Positions 40,046-57,690 of a DNA stretch of 64,000 nucleotides are shown here, piece by piece. Below the pieces are notes generated by a model. That model saw only the letters and a list, made by a program, of their open reading frames with translations, ran no database searches and was not told the DNA's origin. Made by a program: the position numbers and the translations under genes. The stretch lies in the IMG/VR virus record IMGVR_UViG_3300036791_000703, positions 1 to 64,000 of that record; one strand, written 5' to 3'. Each line of letters opens with the position of its first letter. The first letter of the stretch is position 1. Source of the stretch: a virus.

Positions 40046-40443
40046 TCATCGTGCCGACGGTGCGCGGCTTCGTCAAAGCCTCGGCGCCGAAGGTTACGCC
40101 GACGCTGTCGTTCGATACGCCGCCTCTGCTTCCGGTGTCGGGTCACGGTTCTGTCACTGCCTACACCCCCGCTCATGTCGGTGGCGGCCCGTTCTGGGTC
40201 GAGTGGTCCGGCAACGCCGGCAACGCCATCATCACGGCCGGCGGTCTCTCCACCGACAAGGTGCACAACGTGACCGGCATGACCGTCACCACCGGCATGG
40301 TGCTCTACGGCTTCGGCACCCTCTCCGCCGGGGCGCTCGTTGGCGCCTCCTACCAGATCGGCTTCAACATGAAGACGGCACAGAACGGCACGTTGATCGG
40401 TCTCACCTACTTCAACATCACCACGACTTCCCCGAACGTCTGA
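40042..40443 (+). CDS. virion-associated beta-rich protein, 133 aa
   Basis: It is coupled to the fibre gene by ATG overlap. The whole sequence is Thr/Gly/Val-rich strands (VEWSGNAGNAIITAGGLSTD, VTTGMVLYGFGTLSAG). It could be a fibre-head or capping protein. No specific family. Confidence 0.55.
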   Translation: MIIVPTVRGFVKASAPKVTPTLSFDTPPLLPVSGHGSVTAYTPAHVGGGPFWVEWSGNAGNAIITAGGLSTDKVHNVTGMTVTTGMVLYGFGTLSAGALVGASYQIGFNMKTAQNGTLIGLTYFNITTTSPNV

Positions 40444-40454
40444 CGAGGAAAACG

Positions 40455-40694
40455 ATGGGCTACACCTATGACTATTCGCGGCTGCGCGTCGACGGGGTTC
40501 AATCCATTGTCATCAGCAACATCTCGCCCGATCCTCTGTCGACCGAGTACGTGCGGCTGATCCAGATTTATACCGATCCGGCGACCAACACGAACCGGCG
40601 GCCGATCGTCGAGGTCGCGGTCTATGGCGGTGATCAGCAAATCGCCGACCAGACTCCGTTGGAGATCACCATCCCCGGCGGCGTGGAGTTCTGA
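40455..40694 (+). CDS. small beta protein, 79 aa (paralog of 41308-41538)
   Basis: The middle (YVRLIQIYTDPATNTNRRPI, VEVAVYGGDQ) is nearly the same as in the 41308-41538 product, and both end in IxxPGGxxx. It folds as strands, probably part of the fibre/tail tip complex. GAGG lies before the ATG. Confidence 0.55.
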   Translation: MGYTYDYSRLRVDGVQSIVISNISPDPLSTEYVRLIQIYTDPATNTNRRPIVEVAVYGGDQQIADQTPLEITIPGGVEF

Positions 40695-40696
40695 CG

Positions 40697-41311
40697 ATGC
40701 CGATCGGTCATGTCGCCATCGACAATGTCATGTACGGCGATGCGCTTGCCGGTTTGACGTGGCAATTGCGACTCGGTGGCGGTGGCGATGCCTACCTCTA
40801 CAATGTCTGGGGCACCGTCACCGGAGGTCCGCAGCCCTACGCCATCAGTGCGCAGAACGGCACGAACTTCGTGCGCAACTCGAAGACGTTGCTGTTCGTC
40901 CCCGGTGAGTTCTATCGACAATCGTCGAACGGAGCGGTGATCAATTCGCCAACCGGCGCTCCCGTATCTGCCCAGAGTTTTGACAACGCTCTCGGTGCCT
41001 GGGGGTTACGACAGAGCGGCGCCAGCTGCCCGGTCGTTCCGGTCTCGATCGCGTTCCGGGCGCCGCATCTCGTGCCACAGGGCTTGATCAACGTCGCGAT
41101 CTGGAGCTGGACGCTGGCGACCTATGGCGGCAACAACGCCATCGATCCACAGCAATGCATCAACACCACGGTGCATCTGGCGTTCGATTGGGAGACCGAG
41201 CCGCCGCCGGTCGTTAACCCCGGTCCTTCCGGGCCGGGGACGGTGATCGTGCAGACAGCGCCGGGGATCACGACGCCGAACACCAAGCTCAGCGTCAGGC
41301 AGAACCAATGA
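40697..41311 (+). CDS. beta-rich virion protein, 204 aa
   Basis: Strand-rich domain (DNVMYGDALAGLTWQLRLGG, DAYLYNVWGTVTGG) with a C-terminal Pro/Thr linker (PGPSGPGTVIVQTAPGITTP). It lies between the two small paralogs and is linked to both, which hints at one functional set. Function unknown. Confidence 0.5.
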   Translation: MPIGHVAIDNVMYGDALAGLTWQLRLGGGGDAYLYNVWGTVTGGPQPYAISAQNGTNFVRNSKTLLFVPGEFYRQSSNGAVINSPTGAPVSAQSFDNALGAWGLRQSGASCPVVPVSIAFRAPHLVPQGLINVAIWSWTLATYGGNNAIDPQQCINTTVHLAFDWETEPPPVVNPGPSGPGTVIVQTAPGITTPNTKLSVRQNQ

Positions 41312-41538
41312 GCAATGGTGATCCGATCGTCGACACCGCGAGCGGGCTGTTCTCGATCTCGGTGATCGCGCCCGACCCCAACAGCAATTCCTATGTCCGG
41401 CTGATCCAGATTTACGCCGACCTGCCGGACGTTACCAACCGGCGGCCGATCGTCGAATTGCTTCTCTACGGTGGCGATCAGACGGCGGGCAATGTCACGC
41501 CGCTGCAGATCAGCGTGCCCGGCGGCACGGTGTACTGA
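41308..41538 (+). CDS. small beta protein, 76 aa (paralog of 40455-40694)
   Basis: Shares YVRLIQIY, NRRPIVE, YGGDQ and IxVPGGT with the 40455 product, so they are diverged duplicates around the 40697 gene. The ATG overlaps the previous stop (ATGA). Confidence 0.55.
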   Translation: MSNGDPIVDTASGLFSISVIAPDPNSNSYVRLIQIYADLPDVTNRRPIVELLLYGGDQTAGNVTPLQISVPGGTVY

Positions 41539-41552
41539 TCGCATAGCGATCA
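41536..41552. promoter_or_regulatory. inverted repeat upstream of the tail sheath gene
   Basis: TGATCGC-ATA-GCGATCA is a 7-bp perfect stem that begins at the stop codon of the preceding gene (TGA 41536-41538). It could be an mRNA processing or attenuating element ahead of the abundantly made sheath, or an operator. The ribosome site (AAAGGAAAG) is 25 bases further on. Confidence 0.45.
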
Positions 41553-41580
41553 AATCTTCACACACGAAAGGAAAGAGACC

Positions 41581-43497
41581 ATGGGTACGACCCCCGTCTT
41601 CGGCTTGCAATTTATTCAGCAAGATGATCAGGCGATGCCGGTCATAGGTGCTAATATGGACGTTATCGGAATTATCGGCCCGTCGTCCACCGCCGACCCG
41701 GAGATTTTTCCGCTCGATACGCCGGTCCTCTTCTTCTCCAACGATACACTCCTGCTTTCGCACCTTGGGTCCGACGGCTACATTCCTGATGCAATCAACG
41801 GCATCAATGCGCAGCTGGCGGACTTCCAGATCGCGGCGCAGATCGTGATCGTGCGGACGGCCTATGGCGACAGTCTGGTCTCGGAGACCGAGACGCTGCA
41901 GCAGACCATCGCGCGCATTATGGGCGACAGCGTGCTCGGCACCGGGCTCTATGCGTTCCTCAAGGCGCCCAACACGCTCTATTGCACGCCGCGCATCATC
42001 GTTGCGCCCGGCTACACCGGACAGATGGCGAACTCGCTCGATACCCTGACGATCGAGAATGACGGCGTCGGCTACATCCCGAACCAGACCTACGGCATCA
42101 CCTTCGCGCTCGGCAACGGCGAGCAGAACCTGACAACGTCAGTGCTGCCGAAGGGGCATGCGGTCGCCGACAACAACGGCCACATCGGCGAGCAGGAGCT
42201 GTTCATCGACAGCTGGGGCGCGTGGTTCACGGTGGCGCCGGTGGCGACGCTGCCGCCGCCCGACGGCACCCCGGCGCCTGCCTCGCCCGCGCAGGGCCAG
42301 ATCATCTTCAACGCTCAGCCGGGTGTCGGCACCAACATCGCGATCAGCTCACAGCCAGTCACTTTCATCGCCCATGGTGGGACGCCCGCTGCGTATCAGG
42401 TCGCGCTCGGCGTCAATCTCGACGAGACGCTCGACAACCTCGTCGCCTACTTGATGGGGACCACGGCGCAGGCCGATCCCAATCTCGGGCTGTGCACCTA
42501 CGTCAAGGCGGCGTCGACCTATCTGAGCCTGTTGATCACCTCGAAGGCGACCGCGGCGGCAGCCAACGACATCACCGTCACCACCAACGTCACCGGCGCC
42601 CAGTGCTCGCCGACGCTGCAGGGTGGCGCCGACGCTGAAATCTCGACCCAGGCGACAGTGCTCTGCACGATGGCGCTCGGCGCCAATCCGGTGTGCGCCA
42701 ACATGACCGGCGTGCTCGATACCCTGATCGGCCATGGCATCGTCGAGAGCGCCGGCACTTCGATGATCGCCGACGAGAGCTGGCGCACCACGCTCAACAG
42801 CCAGCGCCTCATTGGGCTGTCTGGTGGCGTCAAAATTCAGGACCCGTACTCCGGCGACATCGTGGTGATGCCGTTGGCGCCGCGGATGGCGGGCGCGCTG
42901 GTCGCCGAAGATTTCAGGACCGGCTACCCGTTCCACTCGTGCGCCAACCGCGCCATCCAGGGTATTGTCGGCCCGGCGCGCTCGATCGCGTTCTCGCTCA
43001 CCGATGGTGAGACCGAGGGACAGGTGCTGCTTGGTGCCAACCTCGGGATCATTGCGCGCGGTCTGATCGGGGTCGAGAGCGCGATCTCGTCCGGCGGTTT
43101 CATCCTGATCTCGACCGACAACATGGGGGATGATTCGCTCTGGCAAATGTACAACGTGAAAAGAGGGCGCGACTATATTCATCTCTCGCTGATGCCCGCG
43201 TTGCGCACCTATCTAGGCCGCTCTAACATCGATCGTCAAACTGTTACCAACGTCGAGGAAACCATCGCGTCGTTCCTCGCCCAGCTTACGGCGCTTCAGC
43301 AAATCCTCGGCTACAAGGTCACCTTCAGCGGCAGCCTCAACAGCGCGGAGGAGATCAGGCTCGGGCATCTCACCGTGAGCTTCGCGGCCGAAGAGCCGCC
43401 GGTGCTCAAGTTGATCACCACTATGTCAGCTCGCTACAAGCCGGCGATCGACGCCATGGTCTCGCAGCTCGCCGAGCAGCTGGTGTTCAGCGGCTGA
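41581..43497 (+). CDS. tail sheath protein
   Basis: 638 aa, larger than P2 FI (~395) and T4 gp18-like cores because of an inserted domain (about residues 235-353, GQIIFNAQPGVGTNIAISSQ...). That domain shares features with the insert of the cement protein. The C-terminal conserved part includes SGDIVVMPLAPRMAGALV, ISSGGFILISTDN, VKRGRDYIHLSLMPALRTYL and a final helix. It contracts to drive the tube through the envelope. Followed directly by the two tail tubes. Confidence 0.85.
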   Translation: MGTTPVFGLQFIQQDDQAMPVIGANMDVIGIIGPSSTADPEIFPLDTPVLFFSNDTLLLSHLGSDGYIPDAINGINAQLADFQIAAQIVIVRTAYGDSLVSETETLQQTIARIMGDSVLGTGLYAFLKAPNTLYCTPRIIVAPGYTGQMANSLDTLTIENDGVGYIPNQTYGITFALGNGEQNLTTSVLPKGHAVADNNGHIGEQELFIDSWGAWFTVAPVATLPPPDGTPAPASPAQGQIIFNAQPGVGTNIAISSQPVTFIAHGGTPAAYQVALGVNLDETLDNLVAYLMGTTAQADPNLGLCTYVKAASTYLSLLITSKATAAAANDITVTTNVTGAQCSPTLQGGADAEISTQATVLCTMALGANPVCANMTGVLDTLIGHGIVESAGTSMIADESWRTTLNSQRLIGLSGGVKIQDPYSGDIVVMPLAPRMAGALVAEDFRTGYPFHSCANRAIQGIVGPARSIAFSLTDGETEGQVLLGANLGIIARGLIGVESAISSGGFILISTDNMGDDSLWQMYNVKRGRDYIHLSLMPALRTYLGRSNIDRQTVTNVEETIASFLAQLTALQQILGYKVTFSGSLNSAEEIRLGHLTVSFAAEEPPVLKLITTMSARYKPAIDAMVSQLAEQLVFSG

Positions 43498-43510
43498 CGG
43501 GGAGACAGCG

Positions 43511-44035
43511 ATGGCTGAGACGATCCTCACGTTGGATCAGGCCAACATGTTCTGTGGTCGCGAGCCGGGCGACGTGAACAATGGCCTCTACCTCGAATTA
43601 ACCGAGGTCAAGCTGCCGGCGATGAACGAGCAATACATCGATCATCGTGCCGGTGGTACGCCGATCGCGATCGAAATCGACACCATGTTTGCCAAGCTTG
43701 AGTCGACGTTCCAGCTGCTCGGCTGGAACGTCAACACGGCAACCATGATCGGAACGTGGATGGCAGAACAGAATGTTTTTTGGGTTTACGGTTTGGCGCG
43801 AGATCGTATGACCGGGCAGCCATCTCGTGTCACTGCCAAGATGCGCGGCAGGCTTGGCCTCGCCGAGCCGCAGAACTGGAATAGGTCTGGGGCGCATCAT
43901 TGGAATTATGCGATTAAAGGTATTATCGCCTACGATCTGGTCGTCGGTAATACCTCAATATATTCATGGGACTTTTTCGCAAACAAACTTGTCATCGGCC
44001 CGGTGGCGGGAAATTCGCCGCAACAGTTCTTCTGA
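43511..44035 (+). CDS. tail tube protein, copy 1
   Basis: 174 aa. The sequence (MAETILTLDQANMFCGREPG, WAxxNVFWVYGLARDRMTGQ) resembles P2 FII-type tube proteins of ~170 aa. It is about three-quarters identical to the next gene, marking a tandem duplication. The GGGAGACAGCG leader provides a ribosome site. Confidence 0.8.
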   Translation: MAETILTLDQANMFCGREPGDVNNGLYLELTEVKLPAMNEQYIDHRAGGTPIAIEIDTMFAKLESTFQLLGWNVNTATMIGTWMAEQNVFWVYGLARDRMTGQPSRVTAKMRGRLGLAEPQNWNRSGAHHWNYAIKGIIAYDLVVGNTSIYSWDFFANKLVIGPVAGNSPQQFF

Positions 44036-44057
44036 CGAAACGCAACGGAGTAGACAC

Positions 44058-44648
44058 ATGGCTGAGACCATTCTCACGCTTGACCAAGCCAACATGTTCT
44101 GCGGGCGCGAACCCACGGACGTGAATAACGGTCTGTACTTGGAGCTGACCGAATTCAAGCTGCCGGCGATGAACGACCAGTTCGTCGACCACCGCGGCGC
44201 TGGCGTGCCGATCTCGATTGAAGTCGATACCATCTTCGCCAAGCTGGAGTCGACGTTTCAGTTGATCGGCTGGAACGTCCAGACCGCGACGCTGATCGCG
44301 TCGTGGATGGCCGAGCAGAATGTGTTCTGGATTTACGGGCTGGCGCGCGATCGGATGACCGGCGAGTCGTCACGCGTCACCGCGAAGATGCGAGGTAAGC
44401 TCGGTCTTGCCGATCCGCAGAACTGGAACAGGTCGGGTGCCCAGCATTGGAATTACGCGATCAAGGGCATCATCTCCTACGACCTCGTGATCGGAAACAC
44501 CTCGGTGTACAGCTGGGATTTTTTCGCCAACAGATTTGTCGTTGGCACCTGGGATCGCAATTCCGACACCAACGCGATCCTCAACATTCCGATCGCCACC
44601 GCGGCGCCGATCTTGGTCGGTCCGGTCATCGAGCCGGGGACGCCGTAA
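44058..44648 (+). CDS. tail tube protein, copy 2
   Basis: 196 aa. The first ~155 residues follow copy 1 closely, and the C-terminus differs: copy 2 continues TWDRNSDTNAILNIPIATAA...PILVGPVIEP, while copy 1 ends at GNSPQQFF. The strong 5' match makes the two ORFs share DNA and protein. Whether both are built into one tail or alternate is not visible. A good ATG follows GGAG. Confidence 0.8.
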   Translation: MAETILTLDQANMFCGREPTDVNNGLYLELTEFKLPAMNDQFVDHRGAGVPISIEVDTIFAKLESTFQLIGWNVQTATLIASWMAEQNVFWIYGLARDRMTGESSRVTAKMRGKLGLADPQNWNRSGAQHWNYAIKGIISYDLVIGNTSVYSWDFFANRFVVGTWDRNSDTNAILNIPIATAAPILVGPVIEPGTP

Positions 44649-44651
44649 GCC

Positions 44652-45158
44652 ATGGCGCTCGATACGCTTCGCAAGACCGGCGGTTGGTGCGTCGAACTGT
44701 ATGTGCCGCTCAAATGGGGCGCGCGGACTGTCGACACCATCGAGATCAAGGCGCCGACCATTGGCCTTCTCACCCGGTGGCAACGTGGCGACATTCCGTC
44801 GTCGATGGCGCTATTGGCCGAGCTGTCCGACATTCCGGAGTCGATCCTCAACACCATCACCTATCCGGACGCCGACCGCGTTCTGCTGGCGATGTTCAAC
44901 GTGGTGCCGAAGCCAATCCAGTCCGACTTCTCAAACGGCGTGAGACCGCTGTCGACACCGCCTGATGAGGCGCCGGAGCCGGCGCCGGGATCGCGGCCGT
45001 TGGCGGTCGACGATCCGCGCTTCCCGAAGCACGAAGGCACGCTGTCACAGCCAGAACCGGAGCCTGTGCCCGCGCCCGCGCCTGCGCCCGCGCCAGCTTC
45101 GACCGGGGGGATTGGTGTTTCGATGGATGGGCCATCGGTAATCAGAAAGGTTGTCTGA
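44652..45158 (+). CDS. tail assembly chaperone candidate
   Basis: 168 aa. The N-terminal half (VELYVPLKWGARTVDTIEIK, PTIGLLTRWQRGDIPSSM) is like the phage tail assembly chaperone family that sits between tube and tape-measure genes and coats the tape measure. The second half is a Pro/Ala/Glu tail (EPEPVPAPAPAPAPA). Many such genes use a programmed frameshift. None convincing was seen here. Confidence 0.6.
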   Translation: MALDTLRKTGGWCVELYVPLKWGARTVDTIEIKAPTIGLLTRWQRGDIPSSMALLAELSDIPESILNTITYPDADRVLLAMFNVVPKPIQSDFSNGVRPLSTPPDEAPEPAPGSRPLAVDDPRFPKHEGTLSQPEPEPVPAPAPAPAPASTGGIGVSMDGPSVIRKVV

Positions 45159-45159
45159 C

Positions 45160-48100
45160 GTGTCGGATGTCGACTATAGCGTCAAAATAACCGGGACCGA
45201 CGAGACCAAGCAGGCATTCGAGTCGGCGGCGCGCAACGCGACCGACGCCTCGAAGATGATCAACACGCAGTTCGCCAATCTAACGCAGAGCGTCGACAAA
45301 CAGACTGCGGCGATCGAGAAGCTTGCCAAGAAAGCAGCAGGCAAGGGAGACGAGGACCTCAGCGGTGCGTTCGGTGCGGCCGGAAAATCCGTCGAAGGGT
45401 TTTCTGATGGGCTGAAAAAAGCGCTGTCGCCAGCCGTCGTCATCGCTTTTGTCGAGAAATCGATCGAGGCGTTCGGTGCGATGGAGGACATGCAGAATCG
45501 CATGATCGCCACCGGCAAGGTGAACAAGCAGCAGTCAGAGGAGGTGCTTAAAGTATTAAAAGAAATTGCGATCTTCACCGGCCAGAGCCGTGACGTGATC
45601 GGTGATCATTATACCAAGGTGCTTCAAAATAATGAAAAGCTGATCGGCTCCCTCAAGGACATGGAGCTGTACGCCCATATGGCGAAGATTCCTTTTGAAG
45701 CTGCCTTGGATGTCGGTCAGGCGGCAGTGTCAGGTGGCTTGGACCCCAAGGACCTACCGCAATACTACGCCCGATTGGCGCAGGGCGTAGAGGTTTCCGG
45801 TAAGGCAACCGCAACGGCCACCACTGCGGCACTCGATAGGCTGAAGAGCCTGCAGCTAATCGGGCCGGAGATGGAAAAGCAGGTGACCTCTGTCATCGCA
45901 GCGACCACCACCGCTTCGGTGACTCCGGAAAAGGCCGCCAGCAATCTGGCCACGGTGATGGAGAGGCTCTACCACAAAACCCCCGGCAGTCCGTTGGCTA
46001 ATCTGGGGGTCGAATTTCAGCAACTCACCGACCATGTTATCAATTTCGATCAGTTTGCCGACAAAGCGCTGCAGAAGTATGGCCCTGGAAATCCGGCTTT
46101 CAAATCGTTGTTTCAAAGTGATGAGATTGGCAGGGAGTGGATTCAAAATCTCGCTGATGCGAAGAAATCTGGAAAACTACAAGAGGCCGCCAAGGACGTT
46201 CAGACGTTAGAAAACTGGCCGATGTACAAAGAGAGCCAGACCAAGCTCCTCAATGAAGCGAAGGTTGAGATCAGCGAGGTGGCGGATGAAGTCGGCAAGA
46301 TGGTGAATGCCGGCGCGATCCTCAAAGACCTCTCTTCCGGCATCCATGCGCTGACGTTGGCAATCAGGGAGTTCAACGCGCTCGACACCAACATGAGCAG
46401 CATCATGGGGGCGGGCGCTCAGATCGTGACCGGCAAGCGCGGCACTCGCAACATGCCGATCACGACACCGCAGCCGTCGGTGATGCCCAACATTGGGCCA
46501 GGAGGCGGCGGTGGTGGTGGTGGTGGTGGCGGCGGCGGGTCTGGGCTGCCGAGAATTCCCGTCCCGCCCCAGCCCCAGCATTTCACTGGCGGTGGTGGTA
46601 GCGGAGGCGGAGGCGGCGGCGGTGGCTGGCGACCTGACGCACTCGGGGTCGGCGGCTGGCCATCCTCATCGAACATCGACGATCGCCGCAATCAGTCGCC
46701 CTATGGCGGCGGCTCTAGTGGTCCTGGCGGCGGGGCGCAATACTTCACCGGCTCCGGTGGTAGTCAGCAAGCCGCTGTGACGGCCATGCAGACCGCCAAC
46801 GATGCCGACGTGCACGCCATGGCGATGCGCGGCGAGACCGGTGGCGGTGCGGGCGCTGGCGGATATGGTTGGCCGGGCGCGATACAGGGTGGTCCAGGCG
46901 ATGCCGGTGGTGGCGGTGGCACTGGCTGGGGTCCAGGCGGTGGCCATGGCGGTGCCGGCTATGGCTATGGCGGCGGCTTCCGTCCCGGTATCGGCGGCGC
47001 TCGCGGTCGCCCGGGCAGCGTCGGCGGTCGTCGCAGTCGCACCGGTCCCGGCGCTTCTGACACCACCACATCGACCGACAGCACCAGTCGGCCGGGGACG
47101 CTGCCGTGGCCGACCAATGCGCCGGCCGGGCGGATCGCCGGCACTACGACGGCGACCGGCTATGGCCGCGCCGAGCAGATGACACCGCACGATCTCGGCG
47201 GCACCACCACGACCGTGACCGGCTCGCAGACCTTGAAGCAAGCGCGAGCTGAAATGTTCAGGCAGATGGATGCCGATCCCAAGCTAAAGAATGATGTGAT
47301 GCGCGCGATCCGCGCCGAGAATAATAATCCACAGCCTGTGCTCGAAGCGTTCGCTAACCGCTATGCCGCCGACAAGAGCAGCAGCGTCTACAGCGCGCTT
47401 CACGGTGGGTTTTTCGGTCCCGTCAATCGCAACAGCGAAAGATATCGTTCGCCGCTTTCTGGGGAAGAGGAGAAAGCTGGCCTTGCTGCCTATGAAGCCG
47501 TGAAGAGCGGCAGCAACATGATCGATTACCGCACCGATCAGGGCATGTGGCAGCCGGGATATTATGAGCATCCCTACGCCAAAAAGATTGGCGCCGAAGC
47601 GGCACGGTTGAAGCAGATCGGCGGTGAGTGGTTCAGCGATATGGGGCCGGATCAGCGGGCATGGGCTGATCGAATGCGGGCCGGTGGCGGTGAGACGACC
47701 ACCACGTCGACTGGGCCAGGACAACAAGCCGGTACGGCGCAGTGGCCCGGCGAGGGTGTCGTAGCAGGCGGCGGTGGCGCCTATGCAGGTCCACAGGCTG
47801 GCGCGATGAATGCGCCGGGTGGCAAGCCGCCGGAAGCTTTCATCATGCACCACACCAGCGGTGGCGGTACGCCGCAGGGTGTCGTCGAGGATTGGCGGCG
47901 CAACCGCCCCGGCATCGGCTCGCAGTACATCATGGATCGCGAAGGGCGGGTTTGGGACACCGCGAAGGAGCTTGGCTATGGCGGCACCAGCCACATGCTC
48001 ACCGGCAAGGGCGAGGGTGCTGGTCTGTCGAATCGCAACGTCGTCGGAATGGAGCGGATCGGACAGAGCAACAAGGACTGGACGCAGGCACAAATCGACG

Positions 48101-48633
48101 CCGTCGGTCCTTGGATGGAGCAGCACTATCCTGGCATCCGGATGCTTGGACACGGTCAGGTCAACCCAGGCCATCGCGAGGCGGACGAAGGCAGGGTGAT
48201 GATCGACGCGGTCAATCGGTACCGCGCGACGCATTCTAAGTTAGCGGGTCCTTCCCCGTCCGGTGGTGCGCGTCTCGACAAGAACGCCCCTCCCGCTCCG
48301 TACATGCACGAAATGGAGGATGTCGGGAAACAGCGAACCGATGCCGGTGGGGACCATGAGCCGGCGGCAATCCCTGACAAGTACAATCGACTCGGGCAGC
48401 ATGAGAAATGGCCACCGGAGAAGCCGTCAACCGATGAGGGTCATGCTGGCGACGAGAATATCCGCCGCCAGCGCAGTGAGCTGTCGAAGCCGATCAAGAC
48501 GACGATGAACGTCACCCACCCACGGCAGCATGAGAAGACGGCGCCACCGGATCGGCACAACTCGCGCATCGCTTCGATCGCACAGAGCCGTCATGACCGC
48601 CATCGCCACGGTGGTGACATCGGATATGCGTGA
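45160..48633 (+). CDS. tape measure protein 1 with amidase domain
   Basis: 1157 aa; GTG start after AAAGG (TTG 45151 is an alternative). N-terminal helices (to ~400) resemble the paralog downstream. A Gly/Ser/Pro-rich middle (~440-690) is very low complexity. Residues about 885-1030 form an amidase_2/PGRP-type N-acetylmuramoyl-L-alanine amidase (FIMHHT with His897/His898; HGQVNPGHREAD with His998 and His1005). The C-terminus ends GDIGYA. Tape measures set tail length, and the embedded amidase would open the cell wall. Start overlaps the chaperone stop region. Confidence 0.8.
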   Translation: MSDVDYSVKITGTDETKQAFESAARNATDASKMINTQFANLTQSVDKQTAAIEKLAKKAAGKGDEDLSGAFGAAGKSVEGFSDGLKKALSPAVVIAFVEKSIEAFGAMEDMQNRMIATGKVNKQQSEEVLKVLKEIAIFTGQSRDVIGDHYTKVLQNNEKLIGSLKDMELYAHMAKIPFEAALDVGQAAVSGGLDPKDLPQYYARLAQGVEVSGKATATATTAALDRLKSLQLIGPEMEKQVTSVIAATTTASVTPEKAASNLATVMERLYHKTPGSPLANLGVEFQQLTDHVINFDQFADKALQKYGPGNPAFKSLFQSDEIGREWIQNLADAKKSGKLQEAAKDVQTLENWPMYKESQTKLLNEAKVEISEVADEVGKMVNAGAILKDLSSGIHALTLAIREFNALDTNMSSIMGAGAQIVTGKRGTRNMPITTPQPSVMPNIGPGGGGGGGGGGGGGSGLPRIPVPPQPQHFTGGGGSGGGGGGGGWRPDALGVGGWPSSSNIDDRRNQSPYGGGSSGPGGGAQYFTGSGGSQQAAVTAMQTANDADVHAMAMRGETGGGAGAGGYGWPGAIQGGPGDAGGGGGTGWGPGGGHGGAGYGYGGGFRPGIGGARGRPGSVGGRRSRTGPGASDTTTSTDSTSRPGTLPWPTNAPAGRIAGTTTATGYGRAEQMTPHDLGGTTTTVTGSQTLKQARAEMFRQMDADPKLKNDVMRAIRAENNNPQPVLEAFANRYAADKSSSVYSALHGGFFGPVNRNSERYRSPLSGEEEKAGLAAYEAVKSGSNMIDYRTDQGMWQPGYYEHPYAKKIGAEAARLKQIGGEWFSDMGPDQRAWADRMRAGGGETTTTSTGPGQQAGTAQWPGEGVVAGGGGAYAGPQAGAMNAPGGKPPEAFIMHHTSGGGTPQGVVEDWRRNRPGIGSQYIMDREGRVWDTAKELGYGGTSHMLTGKGEGAGLSNRNVVGMERIGQSNKDWTQAQIDAVGPWMEQHYPGIRMLGHGQVNPGHREADEGRVMIDAVNRYRATHSKLAGPSPSGGARLDKNAPPAPYMHEMEDVGKQRTDAGGDHEPAAIPDKYNRLGQHEKWPPEKPSTDEGHAGDENIRRQRSELSKPIKTTMNVTHPRQHEKTAPPDRHNSRIASIAQSRHDRHRHGGDIGYA

Positions 48634-50978
48634 TGGTTGAGATCGTAGAAAACAAAGTCACTATCGGCGCCAGCGTTGACATCAAGAACGCGTTCGACAG
48701 CGCCACCAAGAACTTCGTTGAGTATTTCAAGACCACCGATCAGTTTTGGAAGAACGCAACCCAGCGCGTCAAGGAGCACGAGGAGAACGCCCACAAGCTG
48801 GCGAAGCGCGTCGGCGGCAAGGGCAAGGAAGACATCGCTGGGGCATTCGGCACCGCCGCCGCAGGTTTGACCGGTTTTCTGACTGGCTTCATCGCCGGTG
48901 CCGTCAAAGAGGCGGAGCACGGCATCATCGATGCCGTCGGGGCCATCATTACGGCTGGCGCCAATGAGGAGGATGCCGACAACCGATTGCTGTCGACCGG
49001 TAAGGTTACCCTTGATGGGCTCAGGCGATTGCACGATCGGTTTCACGAGTTTGGGCCGACGGTCGGCAAGTTCAGCAACGAGCTGAAAGACGAATACCTT
49101 GGGCTGATTCAAACCACTCCGAAGCTGTTGCCGTATTTCGAGACGATGCAGCGAATGAGGTTTGCCACCCAGGCGTCATGGCAATCCATAATGGCGTTGT
49201 CCAATCAGGCGTTGATTGCCGGTGTCAAACCGGCGGACATGCCGGATTATTTGAGGCGGGCAGGGGCAGCGTTTCTCAAGCTCGGTGACGATGGTGTCCA
49301 GGCCGGCACCAAGGTGACCGAGGCGTTTCGCCATGTCCAGGTCACCGGCACTGCTGCGATGAACGATGTCAATTCGATTCTCGCCGGCATCACGCCAGCT
49401 TTTCAAAACAACCCGATGAGGGCGGCCGACGCCCTTAGTCAATTCATCAACGAAGCCGCCAAGGGCACCAACGATTCCAAAACTATGGACTTGATGCGGC
49501 AGATGCAGAGCGGCCAGATCACGCCGATCAAGTTTTTCGACGACATGATGGAGCGGCTCGATCCTTCGGGTAAGGACTTCCTGCTGCGGATGCAGGCCGA
49601 CGATCTCACCAGAGACCTCGTGCAGAATTGGCAGACACAGCGCGATGTCATTCATGCGATAGCCGACAGAATTGTTACGCCGTTTCGTGAGTGGCCGATC
49701 TTCAGCGAGTCGCTGTCGCGTGAACTACGTGAGTTCGCGGAAGCGCTTCACGAGCTTTCTCTTGTGCTTAATACGTTGCTTCCAGTGACCAACACCATCA
49801 GGGCCGCGAAGGACGCGCTCCATTCCATAGTCGAGGACTTCAAGAGTGTAAACGCTGCCAAGGATGCGCTGGTGGAGGGTGTGACTGGCGGGAAACTATG
49901 GGAGTTATATAAATCACTTTTGGGAATAAATCCGGCGGTTTTACAGTATCAAGCGGCCAAAGCCATATGGAATAATTTAGTTCGCACGCCGCCGCCACCG
50001 GCGCCACTGCCGGAAGCTCCGCCTGGGACCTACCCGTCGGTCGAGGGCGAAGGGAAGCCGGTGCGCTTCACCGGCTCCGACGACAATGAGGCCGACGTTC
50101 ACGAGATGGCGATGGCCGCTGAGCGTGGCGGCGCCGCGTTCACACCCGGTGCCGGTGAGTCTCCATGGCCGATGTTCGCAGGCGTGCCTGTGGGCGACTA
50201 CGGCAGGGGTTTTGATTATGGTCCCGCCGGTGTCAGTCCCGCGGGTGGCGCTGGCGCGGGTGGGTACTACGGCGGTGCCGGCGAAGGCTACGATCAACCA
50301 AGTTCAACACCGTCAGCGCCGTCAACGCCGTCAGCATCACCATCATCGACTTCTCCATCGCCAACCACGCCATCATCACCGGCGGCACCTGCCGTCGGCG
50401 GCGACCAGTACAAGTCCGACGTAGATTGGCTGCAGTCGCGTGGTGGTCACGATGCCCGTGACAGCAGTGAGCCCGGCGGCATCAAGCCTGAAATGGCCGC
50501 GCGGCTGCGAGCCGCCGGTGAAGCTTACGAGAAGCAGACCGGGAAGAAGGCGAACTTCGGCGAGATGTTTCGCGACAAGGCGCGGCAAGAAAAATACTAC
50601 GCCGCCTATAAGAGTGGTCGCGGCGGTCTCGCCGCTCGTCCCGGCTATTCCCGCCATGAGCAGGGTGAGGCGACAGACGTTCCGCGCGGCGGGTTTCTTG
50701 ATTGGCTTCATGGCGGCGGGGCAGGCCAGCATGGCTTAGGGTTCTTGTCTGGCAAAGCCTTTCAGATGGACCCTGTTCACGTTCAGATGGATCGCGGCTG
50801 GAAGGGGCAAAAAGCTCCTTCTGCGGAAGCATCCAAGCCGATCAAGGTCTCGATGGAGGTTGAGCCGCCGCCACGCTGGCAGCTCGAACGCGCGGCCCGC
50901 TACACCGATCAACTCGGCAACCGTCATGCTGAACGTCAGCAGCAAGCGAAAGGTGCCGGCGACATAGGATTTGCCTGA
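48633..50978 (+). CDS. tape measure protein 2 with M15 peptidase-like domain
   Basis: 781 aa; GTG 48630 or ATG 48633 overlaps the previous stop. The N-terminal region parallels protein 1 (LAKRVGGKGKEDIAGAFG vs LAKKAAGKGDEDLSGAFG; NRLLSTGKV vs NRMIATGKV). Near the end it has SRHEQGEATD (His675, Asp682) and DPVHVQM (His716), an M15/VanY-type zinc peptidase signature acting on peptide cross-links. It ends GDIGFA like protein 1. Together the two proteins pair an amidase with an endopeptidase. Confidence 0.75.
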   Translation: MVEIVENKVTIGASVDIKNAFDSATKNFVEYFKTTDQFWKNATQRVKEHEENAHKLAKRVGGKGKEDIAGAFGTAAAGLTGFLTGFIAGAVKEAEHGIIDAVGAIITAGANEEDADNRLLSTGKVTLDGLRRLHDRFHEFGPTVGKFSNELKDEYLGLIQTTPKLLPYFETMQRMRFATQASWQSIMALSNQALIAGVKPADMPDYLRRAGAAFLKLGDDGVQAGTKVTEAFRHVQVTGTAAMNDVNSILAGITPAFQNNPMRAADALSQFINEAAKGTNDSKTMDLMRQMQSGQITPIKFFDDMMERLDPSGKDFLLRMQADDLTRDLVQNWQTQRDVIHAIADRIVTPFREWPIFSESLSRELREFAEALHELSLVLNTLLPVTNTIRAAKDALHSIVEDFKSVNAAKDALVEGVTGGKLWELYKSLLGINPAVLQYQAAKAIWNNLVRTPPPPAPLPEAPPGTYPSVEGEGKPVRFTGSDDNEADVHEMAMAAERGGAAFTPGAGESPWPMFAGVPVGDYGRGFDYGPAGVSPAGGAGAGGYYGGAGEGYDQPSSTPSAPSTPSASPSSTSPSPTTPSSPAAPAVGGDQYKSDVDWLQSRGGHDARDSSEPGGIKPEMAARLRAAGEAYEKQTGKKANFGEMFRDKARQEKYYAAYKSGRGGLAARPGYSRHEQGEATDVPRGGFLDWLHGGGAGQHGLGFLSGKAFQMDPVHVQMDRGWKGQKAPSAEASKPIKVSMEVEPPPRWQLERAARYTDQLGNRHAERQQQAKGAGDIGFA

Positions 50979-51514
50979 TGCCCAACAGTGGACAAGCTGG
51001 CCTTCCCGACTTCAGAAGCACCCAGCCCGACGGCACGGGATGGTGGGCGCCGTCGCTCAACGATGGTGGTGGTCGGCCGGTGCTCTACAGTTGGGGATTG
51101 ATCATGTTCGAAATCTTCCCGCTCAACATCCACGAAGTCGACCACGAGACTGCGACCGACTGGGCGCACAAGGAGATCGCTGGCGCGCCGATCTATCGCG
51201 AGTGGGTTGGCGAGAACGACGAGCTGCTGCACTTTCGTGGGCGCATCTTCCCCTACCGCATCGGCGGCATGAGCGATCTGGAGCTTTTCGAGTCGATGCG
51301 CCAGAAGGGCGTCGTCAACGCGATGTTGCGCGGCAATCCGGCGATGATGATCGGCTGGTTCGCCTGTGAACGGTTGGTGCGCTCGCACACGTTTCTCTCG
51401 ACCCAGGGCGTCGGCCAACAGGTCACCTTCGAGGCGGTGATGGCGCGCTTCCCGGTGCCGGACTCGTCGTCCTACTTTTCGCAGATTTGGCAAACCACGG
51501 GAGCGGCAGCCTGA
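50978..51514 (+). CDS. phage tail protein U (gpU)
   Basis: 178 aa, with N-terminal extension. MFEIFPLNIHEVDHETATDW, IYREWVGENDELLHFRGRIF and GGMSDLELFESMRQ match P2 gpU, which attaches to the tail end. The ATG overlaps the tape-measure stop (TGATG). Order U-X-D is P2-like. Confidence 0.8.
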   Translation: MPNSGQAGLPDFRSTQPDGTGWWAPSLNDGGGRPVLYSWGLIMFEIFPLNIHEVDHETATDWAHKEIAGAPIYREWVGENDELLHFRGRIFPYRIGGMSDLELFESMRQKGVVNAMLRGNPAMMIGWFACERLVRSHTFLSTQGVGQQVTFEAVMARFPVPDSSSYFSQIWQTTGAAA

Positions 51515-51786
51515 TGGCGATCACCGGTTTCGAGCTGTGGCAGGTGGGGAGCGAGTACGTCACCGCCGACCTCATCGTATGGAAGCGGTACAAGAACAAG
51601 GCGATCGGCATCGTCGAGACCATGCTCGATGCCAATCCGCAGCTCGCGTTCTGCCACCGCGTGTCGCCGTTCATTCCGGTCGGCACCTTCGTGCGGGTGC
51701 CGATCGATCCTGATCTTATCGCCGGCAAGCCGCAGGTGAAGAGCCAGGACAGTCTCTGGACCGACAAGCAGGGGTACACCGTCTGA
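51514..51786 (+). CDS. tail protein X (gpX)
   Basis: 90 aa, with the LysM-like fold pattern (TADLIVWKRYKNKAIGIVET, PNPQLAFCHRVSP-like, PVGTFVRVPID) of P2 gpX. The ATG overlaps the gpU stop. It helps join hub and spike. Confidence 0.75.
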   Translation: MAITGFELWQVGSEYVTADLIVWKRYKNKAIGIVETMLDANPQLAFCHRVSPFIPVGTFVRVPIDPDLIAGKPQVKSQDSLWTDKQGYTV

Positions 51787-53045
51787 TGGCGCTCACCGTC
51801 ACGCTTGCCGACCCCACCATCTTCGATCCCACTGGCAGTCCCTACGCGAACGCCGCCGATCCACAGCAAGCCAATCGATTGCGTGCTGATGTCGGCATTC
51901 AATTCGCCGGCATGTGGATCACCGCGAAGACCTTGCCGTTTCTGATCAGCATGCGGCTTTTGACTGGCGCCCACATCGAAGACTACCAGTGCGAGATCGA
52001 ACTCGATGATCGCGACGGCACGCTGCCGATCCCGCCGATCGACTCGCCGCTCAATGTCATCATCGGATGGCGCGGTGAGGACTCGCCGATCGTCTGGGAA
52101 GGCGTCGTCCACGACATCGAGCACGGTTTCGGCCGCAAGCAGGGCGGTCGTCGGATGTGGGTGCATGGCTTCGGCGCCGAGCAGCTCAAGGGCGGCAAGG
52201 AGCCACAATACAATCACTGGGGTGAAGGTGCTCCCGATGGCCAGGAGAAGGGACAGATGATCCCGGTGTCGACGGTGCTGAAGGCGGCGGCGCAAGAGGC
52301 TCACCACAGTATCGAGGTGCACCCGGATTTCGATGTAACGGCGATGCAGCAAGACTACTGGCAGCAGGCGGGTGAAAGTTATTACCACTTTGCCAAGCGC
52401 CTTGCCGATCAGATGGGCGCGGTGTTCCGCGTCAAGGGCGGCACCATCGGTCAGTTCACCAAGCAGGGTCAGAACATCGACGGCACACCGACACCAAACG
52501 TGACTGCGGTGTGGGCAAAGAACCTGATCGGCTGGCGGGTGCGGCCGTTGTCGGCACGGCCGATGTGGGCGAAAACCGGCGGCCACTTTTTCGATGTCAG
52601 CGGCGGGATGTGGAATAAGGTTACACAGGCGGTCCAGTCGCAGGCGCTCAACCTTGCCTCTTCTGAATTCCAGCGGTCGCAACCGGCACCCAATCAAGAG
52701 CAGGCCACCGCGGAGAACTCAGGTGATGACGACGGCATGGGCCAGCAGCAAGGACCCGGTCGCATCGTCATCAACGGTGAACCGAACGCGCAAGGCAACT
52801 GCTTAGTGCAGCTGGTCGGCGCGCGGCCCGGTGTCGACGGCACCTATTGGTGTTCGACCTGTGAGCACATCTACAGCCGCCAGGGCTACGTGACATGGTG
52901 TGATGTCAACGCCGTCCAGATCACCGGCGGCTCTGACATCTACAAACTGCAAGGCGCCATCCCGCTGCCGCCGCCACGGCCGTCAAATGCGCCGGGTGGG
53001 CCGACGACACCGTTGCCGCCACCACCGCTGCTAGGCGGCGGTTAA
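51786..53045 (+). CDS. baseplate hub / late control gpD-like
   Basis: 419 aa; belongs to the Phage_GPD family: GMWITAKTLPFLISMRLLTG, a central DxxxxxxxWQQAGESYYHFAKRLADQMGAVFRVKG segment (as in T4 gp27/P2 gpD hubs), then a Pro-rich tail (PPPRPSNAPGG...PPPPLLGGG). It forms the trimeric hub that binds the spike. It overlaps gpX by ATG. Confidence 0.75.
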   Translation: MALTVTLADPTIFDPTGSPYANAADPQQANRLRADVGIQFAGMWITAKTLPFLISMRLLTGAHIEDYQCEIELDDRDGTLPIPPIDSPLNVIIGWRGEDSPIVWEGVVHDIEHGFGRKQGGRRMWVHGFGAEQLKGGKEPQYNHWGEGAPDGQEKGQMIPVSTVLKAAAQEAHHSIEVHPDFDVTAMQQDYWQQAGESYYHFAKRLADQMGAVFRVKGGTIGQFTKQGQNIDGTPTPNVTAVWAKNLIGWRVRPLSARPMWAKTGGHFFDVSGGMWNKVTQAVQSQALNLASSEFQRSQPAPNQEQATAENSGDDDGMGQQQGPGRIVINGEPNAQGNCLVQLVGARPGVDGTYWCSTCEHIYSRQGYVTWCDVNAVQITGGSDIYKLQGAIPLPPPRPSNAPGGPTTPLPPPPLLGGG

Positions 53046-53125
53046 TCCAAAACTTCTTTCGACGCGACCGCCTCGCTTGTGGGGCGACGCCACCCTTTTG
53101 ACCATCGCAACCCAAGGAGACCGAC

Positions 53126-53500
53126 ATGGTCGCATCGCTCGAAAACCAAGTGCTCGACTTCGGCCTGAGCCAACTCTCGACGCTGTCATCCTATCTCTCG
53201 ATCTGCTCCGCCGAGCCGACCACCATCGCGATTGCTGCGACCTCCGGTCTGCTCGGCTACAAGAGCTGGGGCGCCGGTGGTGTGTTCGGCGCGCCCACAG
53301 CTGGCTCGCCCAATGGACGGATGGTGTCATCGAACTCGATCACCGACGGCACCATTACCACGTCGGGTACGGCATCGTGGTGGGCGGTCTATGCTGCGGG
53401 CACGCTGCACGCGCATGGGACGTTGAGTGCGGCGCAAGTTGTAACCGCCGGGAACACCTTCACGCTCACGTCATTCAATATTCGTATACCCAATCAGTGA
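53126..53500 (+). CDS. small tail/virion protein, 124 aa
   Basis: GGAGACC precedes the ATG. The domain (SLENQVLDFGLSQLSTLSSY, then Thr/Gly/Ala strands TISSNSITDG-like) is beta-rich and ends NIRIPNQ. Such proteins often trim the tip or cap fibres. No firm family. The last codons contain CAATCAG, which can pair with the HNH leader downstream. Confidence 0.55.
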   Translation: MVASLENQVLDFGLSQLSTLSSYLSICSAEPTTIAIAATSGLLGYKSWGAGGVFGAPTAGSPNGRMVSSNSITDGTITTSGTASWWAVYAAGTLHAHGTLSAAQVVTAGNTFTLTSFNIRIPNQ

Positions 53501-53512
53501 TCATAAAAAGTA

Positions 53513-53571
53513 GTTGACTTGTTTGTGTTAGTCAACCACTCTGATTGCGTCTCAAGGGAAGGCGCAATCAG
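53513..53571 (+). promoter_or_regulatory. two tandem stem-loops ahead of the HNH endonuclease gene
   Basis: Stem 1 is GTTGACT...AGTCAAC (53513-53519 with 53530-53536, 10-nt loop). Stem 2 is CTGATTGCG...CGCAATCAG (53541-53549 with 53563-53571), whose 13-nt loop contains the ribosome site AAGGGAAGG and which ends immediately before the ATG. The CAATCAG inside the upstream gene's last codons (53491-53497) could pair with CTGATTG instead, giving an alternative structure. TTGACT in stem 1 resembles a -35 box, but no -10 is seen. Confidence 0.6.
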
Positions 53572-54282
53572 ATGTGGGATATCGAAAACAAGCGAGTCAG
53601 CGCAGAGGCTTGGGCATGGTTCAACATGCTAGTCCGTTGCGCGAATGTGGAGCGAGACTGGCATAAACGCGGCATCACGGTCTGCGATCGGTGGCAGGTG
53701 TTTGCCAACTTCCTCGCCGACATGGGCCGTCGCCCAGGACCTGAATTTTCTCTCGACCGGAAAAATAACGACGGCAACTACGAGCCCGGCAACTGTCGTT
53801 GGGCGACCGCGTCTGAGCAAATGAAGAATAGGCGGACTTGGAAAAAGTCTGAAGCAGAAGTTGCCGCATGGATCGCTACCAATCGCGCCCTTGCTTTAGA
53901 GGGCAAGGGTGTCTGGGCGAAGGGTCTCAAGCGTCACTGGTCCCCGGAAGCGAAGGAGCGTTATCGCCAAAAACGATGGGGGCAGAAAGAGCAAGGACTT
54001 GGAATCAGCTCGCCAGCGGCACGAGAGAAATTATCGCAGCGCAAGCGGGCGCCAGTCTCAGATGAGACTAAGCAAAAGATCAGTGCTGCGCAAAAAGGGC
54101 GGAAGCTCAGCGACGCTCACGTTGCAGCACTGCGCGGTGCGTATGATGGCGAAGCCGGTCAAGAGCGTCGCACCAAAATGACAAAGGTGATGACGGGAAG
54201 AAAGGTCTCTGACGAGACGCGCCAAAAACAAAGTGAGGCTGCTAGGGTGCGTTGGGACCGCCACCGATCATCAGGGGAATGA
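53572..54282 (+). CDS. HNH homing endonuclease with NUMOD3-like tail
   Basis: 236 aa. Residues 40-90 are an HNH nuclease (FLADMGRRPGPEFSLDRKNN, YEPGNCRWATASEQ). The C-terminal half has two NUMOD3-like motifs (VSDETKQKISAAQKGRKLSD; GRKVSDETRQKQSEA), typical DNA-binding modules of phage homing endonucleases. It lies between virion genes and its stop overlaps the FkbM gene start (ATGA). The structured leader suggests tight translation control, as known for T4 intron endonucleases. Confidence 0.85.
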   Translation: MWDIENKRVSAEAWAWFNMLVRCANVERDWHKRGITVCDRWQVFANFLADMGRRPGPEFSLDRKNNDGNYEPGNCRWATASEQMKNRRTWKKSEAEVAAWIATNRALALEGKGVWAKGLKRHWSPEAKERYRQKRWGQKEQGLGISSPAAREKLSQRKRAPVSDETKQKISAAQKGRKLSDAHVAALRGAYDGEAGQERRTKMTKVMTGRKVSDETRQKQSEAARVRWDRHRSSGE

Positions 54283-56144
54283 CCATGCTTGAGAAGCCGA
54301 CGCTCACCTCGGACACCTTCGAGTGCCGCCACGGCACCTTCACCATCTTCAACGAGGACGAACTCGTCGGGATGTCGCTCGCGGTGTACGGCGAATATTC
54401 CGAGGGCGAGGTCGTCGTCTTCGAAAAGTGCCTTCGCGAAGGTCACGTCGCGATCGATGTCGGCGCCAACATCGGCGCCTTCACTGTGCCGATGGCGAAG
54501 CTGGTTGGCGACACCGGGGCGGTGATCGCATTCGAGGCGTCGGTGCAGAACGTCTCGCTGCTGGAAAAGAACATCAAGCAGAATGACCTCATCAACGTCA
54601 TAGTAATTCCGGCTGCCGCGAGCGACACCACCGGCACGGTGAAGGTCTCCAAGCAGGATGCGCTGCATGCCTACACCCGGCCCGACATCAACGTCGGTGA
54701 GCTGGAAGTGCCGTGCCAGACCATCGACAGCCTGGAGCTGGGCAAGTGCAACTTCATCAAGATCGATGTCGATCGCCACGAGCTGCAGGTGCTCAAGGGC
54801 GCCGAGCAGACGATCGCGAAATTCAAGCCGATCATCTATGTCGAGAACGAGGATCAGGGAAACAGCGAGGCGCTGATCGCGTGGCTGGTCGAGCACGGCT
54901 ATCGGCTGTACTGGCACCGGCCGTCGCACTTCAACCTGAAGAACTTTCGTGGTGTGCCGCCGGAGCGCAATCTGTTTGGCGTGCTGATCTCGATCATGAT
55001 GCTGTGCGTCCCCGACAACGACTGGAAGTGGGAGATCAACGGGCTCGACGAGGTCGCCGACATCCGCCAGGACGACGACATGTTCAACCGCGAGATCGCG
55101 CGCTACCAGCGGATCACCGCGAAGTTTCCCGACGATCTGATGTCGCGGCTGCTCACCGCGCACTACCTTAACCTGATGCAGCGCTCGGACGAGGCGATGG
55201 CGCTGATCAACGAGAACCTTGCCGCCGATCCAGCGCACAAGGCGTCGCTCAACATCAAAGCGCTGCTCGATCTGCAGGCCGGCCGCTGGCATGACGGCTG
55301 GAAGGGCTACGAGCTGCGCTACGGCCACGCCAACAAGCACATGTTCGGTGGCGCGCGCGAGCACACCGCTCCACGCTGGGACGGCAAGCCGACCGAGGAG
55401 CCGCTGCTAATCTGGTCCGAGCAGGGCTTCGGTGACCAGATCATGTTCGCGCGGTTCTACGAGGACGTGATCACTCTCGCCCCTAACGCGGTCTTCGAGG
55501 TGCAGCCCGAGCTGTTCGAATTGTTCGAGACCTCGTTTCCGCATCTCGAAATCTATCGGGTGCGCCGGACGCTGCCGTATTACGCGCTGCAGCTGCCGTT
55601 GCCGTCGGTGCCGGTGGTACTCGACGCCGATGCGGCGATGATCATGGAGAGCGGTGATTCGTATCTCAAGGTCAATCCCATGATCACCGCAAACTGGCGC
55701 GGCCACGGCAATCATCCGTTCGCCCACGGCCGTGATCCGCTCAACGGTGCCCGCATCGGACTGTGCTGCGTCGGGTCGCTGACCAGCGAGCGGCCCTACA
55801 CCCGCGATATCCCGAGCGAGCTGATCGCGCCGTTAGTCAAGCAGCATGGACCGTTCTTCTCGCTCGAACATTCCGGGCAGTTCGAGAGCTTCGCCACCAC
55901 TGCCGGTGCGATCATGGCGCTCGATCTCGTCATCACCGTCGATACCTCGATCGCGCATCTCGCGGGTGCGCTCGGCAAGCCGGTGTGGCTGTTGCTGTCC
56001 TACGATCCGGACTGGCGCTGGGGGCTGACCGGTGAGACCAGCATCTGGTATCCCTCGATGCGCATTTTCCGCCAGCCCAAATTCCGCGACTGGAAATCGG
56101 TGATCGCGAACGTCAGCGCCGCCCTTGAGGAACGCTACGCGTGA
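54279..56144 (+). CDS. FkbM-type methyltransferase fused to TPR and GT9-like domains
   Basis: 621 aa; the ATG overlaps the HNH stop. Residues 40-240 are an FkbM SAM methyltransferase (motif I DVGANIGAF, Asp60-Phe68; KIDVDRHELQVLKGAE with Asp163). Residues ~270-330 form a TPR-like helical hairpin region. Residues 365-610 resemble a GT9/heptosyltransferase-like domain of TPR proteins (EQGFGDQIMFARF at 381; TVDTSIAHLAGALGKPVWLL, Asp555; YDPDWRWG). It would modify sugars, perhaps virion glycans or host envelope. Activity is inferred. Confidence 0.75.
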   Translation: MTMLEKPTLTSDTFECRHGTFTIFNEDELVGMSLAVYGEYSEGEVVVFEKCLREGHVAIDVGANIGAFTVPMAKLVGDTGAVIAFEASVQNVSLLEKNIKQNDLINVIVIPAAASDTTGTVKVSKQDALHAYTRPDINVGELEVPCQTIDSLELGKCNFIKIDVDRHELQVLKGAEQTIAKFKPIIYVENEDQGNSEALIAWLVEHGYRLYWHRPSHFNLKNFRGVPPERNLFGVLISIMMLCVPDNDWKWEINGLDEVADIRQDDDMFNREIARYQRITAKFPDDLMSRLLTAHYLNLMQRSDEAMALINENLAADPAHKASLNIKALLDLQAGRWHDGWKGYELRYGHANKHMFGGAREHTAPRWDGKPTEEPLLIWSEQGFGDQIMFARFYEDVITLAPNAVFEVQPELFELFETSFPHLEIYRVRRTLPYYALQLPLPSVPVVLDADAAMIMESGDSYLKVNPMITANWRGHGNHPFAHGRDPLNGARIGLCCVGSLTSERPYTRDIPSELIAPLVKQHGPFFSLEHSGQFESFATTAGAIMALDLVITVDTSIAHLAGALGKPVWLLLSYDPDWRWGLTGETSIWYPSMRIFRQPKFRDWKSVIANVSAALEERYA

Positions 56145-57433: not shown

Positions 57434-57445
57434 AGGATCAGCCCA

Positions 57446-57616
57446 TTGATCGACATGCCGCCTGCACTCGACATCAACGTCGGCTCGCCAGTGCTAGCGA
57501 TGCCGACAGTGGCACAGTTCGCGTGGGTGATCCTGTCGAGTCCGATTTCCGGCCAGATCGTGGCGACGCCACCGATCACCGCGGCCGTCGACATCGAACG
57601 AATTCCAATTTCCTGA
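57446..57616 (+). CDS. 56-residue VGSP-motif peptide
   Basis: Short ORF from a TTG (or ATG 57455) after GGA. It carries NVGSPVLAMP and then a strand segment (FAWVILSSPISGQIVATP). It looks like a small stand-alone copy of the motif-bearing domain, possibly a duplicate or decayed piece. The start is uncertain. Confidence 0.45.
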   Translation: MIDMPPALDINVGSPVLAMPTVAQFAWVILSSPISGQIVATPPITAAVDIERIPIS

Positions 57617-57656
57617 ATGGGTGCGGTCGAGCCCTGATGCGGCTGCATTCCAGAAG

Positions 57657-57690
57657 CCCGACCCGGACACGCCTTCCCGTCCGGGTCGGG
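57657..57690. other. 12-bp perfect hairpin between virion genes
   Basis: CCCGACCCGGAC (57657-57668) pairs with GTCCGGGTCGGG (57679-57690), 10-nt loop. No U-tract follows on either strand, so it is more likely an mRNA stability or processing element than a terminator, although rho-dependent or pausing roles are possible. The next gene starts 45 bases further on. Confidence 0.5.

Follow-up and report, generated by a model that had tools for sequence, protein, structure and literature searches.

The tape measure of a phage tail is usually regarded as the product of one gene per tail, and the question raised by this locus is why two genes of that kind should lie side by side in a single tail module. 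The window analysed is a stretch of 64,000 nucleotides from an IMG/VR virus record that is 66,020 bases long; it encodes the genome of a tailed phage. The phage is uncultured and contractile-tailed.

The tail module and its two tape-measure-type genes

Head genes precede the tail module. They comprise a terminase (5839-7332), a portal (15639-19628), a head maturation protease (19932-21800) and a major head protein (22788-23762). The open frame of the portal has 1329 residues, of which 225-684 are matched, and its long C-terminal part has no match. The protease frame has 622 residues; its best match runs over residues 206-610, after an N-terminal extension of about 200 residues. Fibre genes lie upstream of a P2-type contractile tail module, in which homologues of the sheath, FII tube, GpU, X and D occur in order. 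On the plus strand these are the tail sheath (41581-43497; phrog_23 tail sheath, E 6e-37), a tail tube protein (43511-44035; Phage_tube PF04985, E 3e-12), a second tube protein 79% identical to the first (44058-44648; PF04985, E 5e-13), a single tail assembly chaperone, recognised by its position and a weak match (44652-45158; PF10109, E 0.015, 15.7 bits against a cut-off of 25), a GpU-type tail completion protein (50978-51514; PF06995, E 7e-17), tail protein X (51487-51786; PF05489, E 5e-6) and a GpD-type baseplate hub (51786-53045; phrog_52, E 3e-19).

A Megablast comparison of positions 40000-58000 with the phage collection gave no match, indicating that a close relative is absent there; the best sheath match in that collection is to Microcystis phage Mae-JY30 (41%). 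Sheath relatives were found at 33 loci in GTDB genomes (42-51%). All 33 record titles are ones that we take to be alphaproteobacterial, so an alphaproteobacterial host is possible, but no more than that. In Mae-JY30 and Aurantimonas phage AmM-1, the annotated P2-type module (FI, FII, E, T, U, X, D) has the same order of sheath, tube, chaperone, tape measure, U, X and D. These phages have one tube gene and one tape measure gene, whereas the window has two of each.

Between the chaperone and GpU lie TMP1 (45160-48633, plus strand; 1160 aa) and TMP2 (48633-50978, plus strand; 782 aa). The start of TMP1 is most likely GTG 45160, which encodes the first residue common to its relatives; the mechanical ORF begins at TTG 45151. 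For TMP2 the most likely start is ATG 48633, which overlaps the TMP1 stop as TGATG; here the mechanical ORF begins at GTG 48630. The initial annotation had described two neighbouring paralogues at this place on the evidence of a few short shared blocks. Both the place and the paralogy are confirmed: BLASTP aligns the two proteins with 24% identity over 414 aa (E=3e-30), and the middle block and the last 50 or so residues also align. Alignment outside the hydrolase regions shows that the identity is real beyond the quoted blocks. Scores were 328 for the N-terminal parts (shuffled sequences, 40.5 +/- 6.1), 137 for the middle block (63 +/- 10) and 69 for the C-terminal tails (24.7 +/- 4.7), which excludes chance as the source of these three matches. 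The hydrolase regions do not align with each other (score 29; shuffles 32.8).

Besides their position, the predicted fold points to tape measures. The TMP1 body (45358-46470, plus strand) was modelled as entirely helical, with a mean pLDDT of 66.6 and values of mostly 70-90 for residues of about 100-380. The model gave 83 matches in BFVD at E<=0.001 (best E 1.1e-6), and among the named matches listed most are tape measure or minor tail proteins. The TMP2 body (48837-49979, plus strand) is assigned to the same helical type by homology to TMP1. Neither window protein reaches the cut-off of a Pfam tape-measure model (TMP_2, 16.7 bits against 30.2); in the wider set of tape measures used for the tree described below, the protein of locus L022 passes PhageMin_Tail (34.7 against 33.2 bits). 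No 19-residue window above 1.74 on the Kyte-Doolittle scale was found in 16 tape measures, so they have no clear membrane helix. Taken by position, homology and predicted fold, both window genes appear to encode paralogous tape-measure-type proteins.

Identity profiles along the proteins separate conserved joints from variable parts. The joints are the first 60 aa, a Gly-rich linker and the C-terminal tail; the variable parts are the body and two hydrolase positions, here termed slot A and slot B. In TMP1 the linker, which includes the ADVHAMAM block, spans 46471-47208, and the conserved tail (SKPIK ... GDIGYA) spans 48433-48630; the corresponding tail of TMP2 (SKPIK ... GDIGFA) lies at 50826-50975 (all on the plus strand). 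This mosaic reveals natural joints at which domain exchange is tolerated.

Hydrolase slots and cassette exchange

TMP1 appears to carry two wall-hydrolase slots. Slot B (47788-48240, plus strand) holds an Amidase_2 domain which passes the curated cut-off (PF01510, E 1.8e-7; 32.0 against 26 bits). Zinc in Amidase_2 domains is bound by two histidines and a third residue, and the histidines of the HH and GHG motifs are invariant in the three sequences compared. The residues singled out in the initial annotation, His897/898, His998 and His1005, are correctly numbered from 45160 (the mechanical ORF is shifted by 3), but His1005 is not conserved in the homologue from locus L007. That annotation was also right that TMP1 has an amidase, but it overlooked a further putative hydrolase domain upstream, at about residues 692-843.

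This second domain, in slot A (47224-47679, plus strand), belongs to a family, A5, in which a Glu and an Asn are invariant and a GSN...T motif is present. Eleven members of A5 have no match among Pfam families, its profile has none among PDB sequences, and the slot A model (pLDDT 69.5) no Foldseek match at E<=0.001. With VIA-align the model matched SleB (4fet_B) at Z 6.4 over 80 residues, alone among 26 chains at Z>=2, where by the tool's own caveat values below 8 may reflect a common arrangement. Profile comparison of A5 with the Hydrolase_2-like domain of the L035 TMP2 gave a weak match (E 0.0058, probability 6%). Slot A may hold a SleB-like glycan-cutting domain, a tentative assignment, and A5 would be a putative new family of wall hydrolases.

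TMP2 carries a peptidase-like domain at 50412-50819 (plus strand). The zinc motif of M15 (VanY) peptidases is SxHxxGxAxD and [DE]xxH, and both parts are present, as SRHEQGEATD (residues 673-682) and DPVH (713-716), numbered from 48633. The three residues named previously, His675, Asp682 and His716, are therefore those of the motif (the mechanical ORF is shifted by 1). The VanY model scores below its cut-off (PF02557, E 3.4e-4; 20.8 against 25 bits), and for this reason the domain is called M15-like rather than a member of M15. It has no match among PDB sequences.

Slot contents differ between relatives. A5 occupies slot A in TMP1 of the window and of loci L005, L016 and L115, and also in the single tape measures of L008, L018, L025, L041 and L044. 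In L006 and L035 the same slot holds Phage_lysozyme2 (E 1e-14 and 8e-18, respectively). The slot A domain of L007, shared with L055 (71%), gives a weak Phage_lysozyme2 match (E 0.05) and is read here as SLT-like. Slot B holds Amidase_2 in the window and L007, M15_4 in L005, M23 in L035 and CHAP in L008; in L006, L016 and L115 we read from its motif a putative second M15-like type, which has no M15 match in Pfam. The TMP2 cassette is M15-like in the window and L007 and Hydrolase_2-like in L035 (E 0.0013, below the cut-off), and in L006 and L115 it is unassigned, though by eye it looks RlpA-like. No recognised hydrolase was found in TMP2 of L005 or L016. Between L115 and L016, slot B is 97-100% alike while slot A and the TMP2 cassettes differ. 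Both phages with an amidase in slot B carry an M15-like TMP2, and none of the four with an M15-type slot B does, a pairing seen in six phages and thus in too few for a rule.

Since slot contents differ between phages whose tube proteins are 73-97% identical, cassette exchange is supported. The earlier proposal of duplication followed by cassette exchange is upheld by this finding of different hydrolases in the same slots of relatives whose tail genes are near-identical, together with the separation of TMP1 and TMP2 on the tree. Its corollary, that the pair supplies two complementary activities, is oversimplified: putative catalytic slots number two in TMP1 alone, and no hydrolase is recognised in TMP2 of L005 or L016.

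Replacement and shared history of the helical bodies

Exchange extends to the bodies. Tube proteins are 92-97% identical in six pairs of phages. Five of these pairs share only 32-42% identity in their bodies, against 73 and 79% for the remaining pair, L115-L016. At conserved 4-fold codons, the bodies of the window agree with those of L016 and L115 at 31-43% of sites, where chance is 34%; in the flanks (tube, chaperone, GpU and D) 4-fold-site identity for the same pairs is 69-73%. For L115-L016, values of 58 and 66% in the bodies compare with 70% in the flanks. Rapid evolution of the bodies in place was rejected for the window-L115 and window-L016 pairs, in which synonymous sites are at chance. 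Under fast change in place these sites should still match, and the simplest reading is therefore that the bodies were exchanged between phages by recombination. Some values exceed chance (TMP2 of window-L005, 50%; TMP2 of L115-L005, 59%), so the pattern of replacement is not uniform.

The two bodies seem to have been replaced in step. In the flanking proteins the window pairs with L115 (100/100) and L016 with L005 (99/99), and L115+L016 is rejected (p 2.8e-5). In each of the two bodies L115 pairs with L016 (100/100) and window+L115 is rejected (AU tests, p 5.9e-5 and 1.6e-6), in tests that involve long branches and groupings chosen after the identities were seen. A separate quartet analysis gave the same kind of conflict between body and flank. 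Across 15 pairs from six phages, TMP1 and TMP2 body identities are correlated (r=0.93; partial correlation 0.95 given tube/chaperone identity), and only 3 of 720 label permutations in a Mantel test were as high for r and 2 of 720 for the partial value. With six phages only, the L115-L016 pair carries much of this correlation, and without it r is 0.62 and the partial value 0.76. These comparisons indicate that the TMP1 and TMP2 bodies share a history that runs against that of their flanks.

Linkage is the main possible alternative to co-adaptation as the cause. If one block from the TMP1 body to the TMP2 body moves between phages and its middle changes later, a shared history would follow without any functional tie. 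The bodies are about 2.4 kb apart in the window, and L115 and L016 have slot B as well as both bodies in common; because that slot is 97-100% alike, one long transfer followed by replacement of the linker and slot A could explain part of the pattern. The TMP1 linker and slot A, which lie between the bodies, nevertheless follow a different grouping: the linker joins L005 with L016 (90/94; window+L016 is not rejected, p 0.07), and slot A is 62% identical between those two. TMP1 body identity is also uncorrelated with that of its own adjacent linker (-0.02). We consider linkage alone unlikely. The simplest functional reading of the sequence data is that the helical bodies are in contact and have to fit each other, which would make TMP1 and TMP2 a co-adapted tape-measure pair.

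Tape measure chains lie in the lumen of the tail tube, with the C-terminus at the hub, and are ejected before the DNA. The computations show the paralogy, the position, the match to the tape-measure fold, the replacement of cassettes and bodies and the shared body history; that both proteins are present in the virion, pair physically, dock by their tails and are enzymatically active is inferred. Tandem duplication of the tape measure gene would have produced TMP1 and TMP2, both of which would lie in the lumen of the P2-type contractile tail, fill it together and be ejected with the DNA. Their N-terminal helical bodies would most likely pack together as a heteromeric tape measure, and it is because they are packed against each other that they would have to match. 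Through the C-terminal tails that they have in common, the two chains probably bind one and the same baseplate hub or chaperone. Replaceable peptidoglycan hydrolases, set between body and tail (putatively SleB-like plus amidase in TMP1, M15-like in TMP2), would be carried into the periplasm and open the wall on tail contraction. On balance we lean towards this scheme of two lumen proteins with paired bodies, hub-docked tails and replaceable hydrolases. Its strongest form, put forward tentatively and with rather less than even confidence, is a two-chain tape measure in which the duplicates are obligate partners, the paired bodies are replaced together by recombination within a phage population, each chain can exchange its hydrolase cassettes at separate joints and doubling has occurred at least twice.

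TMP1 could instead be the sole ruler and TMP2 a tape-measure-derived cargo of the tail, delivering an extra wall hydrolase or a membrane-acting body. TMP2 is the shorter protein (782 against 1160 aa), its load seems optional given that L005 and L016 lack a recognised hydrolase there, and it is TMP1 that keeps the two-slot layout of the single tape measures in L008, L018 and L055. Set against this, the body of TMP2 is full-length and belongs to the TMP1 family, both proteins end in the same C-terminal tail, and the two bodies vary together, which makes a cargo role seem fairly improbable to us.

Distribution, precedents and neighbouring genes

Loci were gathered by scans with the sheath, a sheath profile, GpU, the L035 sheath and a tube protein, with one genome scan and three phage records added. 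Single-query searches with N-terminal halves of the tape measures against viral_contigs, and with whole tape measures against the phage collection, found no relatives; these surfaced through the sheath, GpU and tube queries instead. The set comprises 165 loci including the window, of which 114 span the whole region between tube or chaperone and GpU. After 26 of these were counted as repeat contigs, 88 distinct loci remain, some of them near-copies from different samples. Two ORFs match the tape measure profile in six of the 88 (the window, L005, L006, L016, L115 and L035). L007, whose contig stops short of GpU, is a seventh case. In 34 of the 114 loci, the more distant ones, the profile found no matching ORF, and ORFs of at least 330 aa were counted instead. 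More than one such ORF without a second profile match occurs only in L098 (three) and L128 (two). In L098 (12210-19395, a Bauldia MAG contig), one of the three ORFs between tube and GpU matches the profile, and the contig carries another sheath locus, L111.

A tree was built from the first 430 residues of the tape measures (26 rows; five of 31, from L002, L012, L017, L025 and L055, diverged too far to be included, and the set predates the finding of L115). The five TMP1 rows fall on one side of a branch (90/88) and the five TMP2 rows on one side of another (96/93). The single tape measures of L008 and L018 (98/96) are sister to TMP1+TMP2 (100/97). The L035 pair, 51% identical to each other, group together (100/99), with the single tape measure of L013 adjacent. 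On this topology, doubling would have occurred once before the window's group radiated and a second time, independently, in L035. The doubled tape measure is thus a real, conserved variant that evolved at least twice. All sequences are metagenome contigs and L008 and L018 have one gene, so a frameshift or an assembly error might be suspected of creating a false second gene or a false mosaic. The two-gene layout nevertheless recurs in seven contigs from two lineages, TMP1 and TMP2 are paralogues and not halves of one gene, and the longest exact DNA match within these genes is 57 bases in the four phage pairs compared. An artefact is hence extremely improbable.

One ruler is normally enough for a phage, and the two tape measures might be alternatives, with a single one of them in each virion and with two tail types or adaptation to two hosts as the result. 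Doubling of the tube gene, in the window as in L115, would fit this. TMP1 and TMP2, however, share an operon with an overlapping stop and start and one chaperone, their body lengths are alike, so that no second tail length is evidently coded, and tube doubling and tape measure doubling are not associated. We regard this explanation as improbable. A link between the two doublings had been considered and was dropped, since they do not go together. Doubling of the tube gene, at 43511-44035 and 44058-44648 in the window (79% identical), is also found in L115, L008, L009, L012, L015, L023, L025, L026, L036 and L041. In the tube tree neither the first nor the second copies form a single clade, and several gains or losses are therefore likely.

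No description of two paralogous tape measures in one phage was found in the literature searched, a weak negative as this covered few subscription papers and no bioRxiv preprints. The Tmp of mycobacteriophage TM4 (PMC1796659) is described as a single hydrolase-bearing tape measure protein, and gp95 of phiCbK (PMC3556154) as a tape measure protein with a CHAP domain. Both resemble the present proteins in being long tail-lumen proteins with a peptidoglycan-cutting motif that aids DNA entry (PMC1796659; PMC3556154). Each of those phages has one tape measure gene, whereas the window phage has two paralogues, whose putative catalytic domains number three and whose bodies share their exchange. Phage 0305phi8-36 (PMC2147016) also shows paralogous duplication within the tail module and a conserved scaffold fused to variable, exchangeable domains; in that account the chaperone is split in two genes and the tape measure is single, whereas in the window it is the tape measure that is doubled. 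What appears to be new here, judged from the sequences, is that helical bodies are exchanged as well, and that those of TMP1 and TMP2 follow the same history against their flanks. Natural duplicates with matched bodies offer a direct test of how the chains are arranged in the tail lumen, and could show whether a ruler can be heteromeric and in which part tape measures differ between phages.

Sheath ORFs are longer in L012 (3720-5957), L015 (1450-3741), L017 (9998-12592) and L044 (9926-12232), at 746-865 residues compared with 638 in the window, which suggests inserts. An HNH endonuclease gene (53545-54282) lies downstream of the D gene in the window, and GIY-YIG-like ORFs, read by eye, lie between sheath and tube in L010 (2758-3504), L014 (1794-2540) and L013 (1578-2000). 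Placed next to the tail module, such nucleases might favour the exchange observed among the tail genes.
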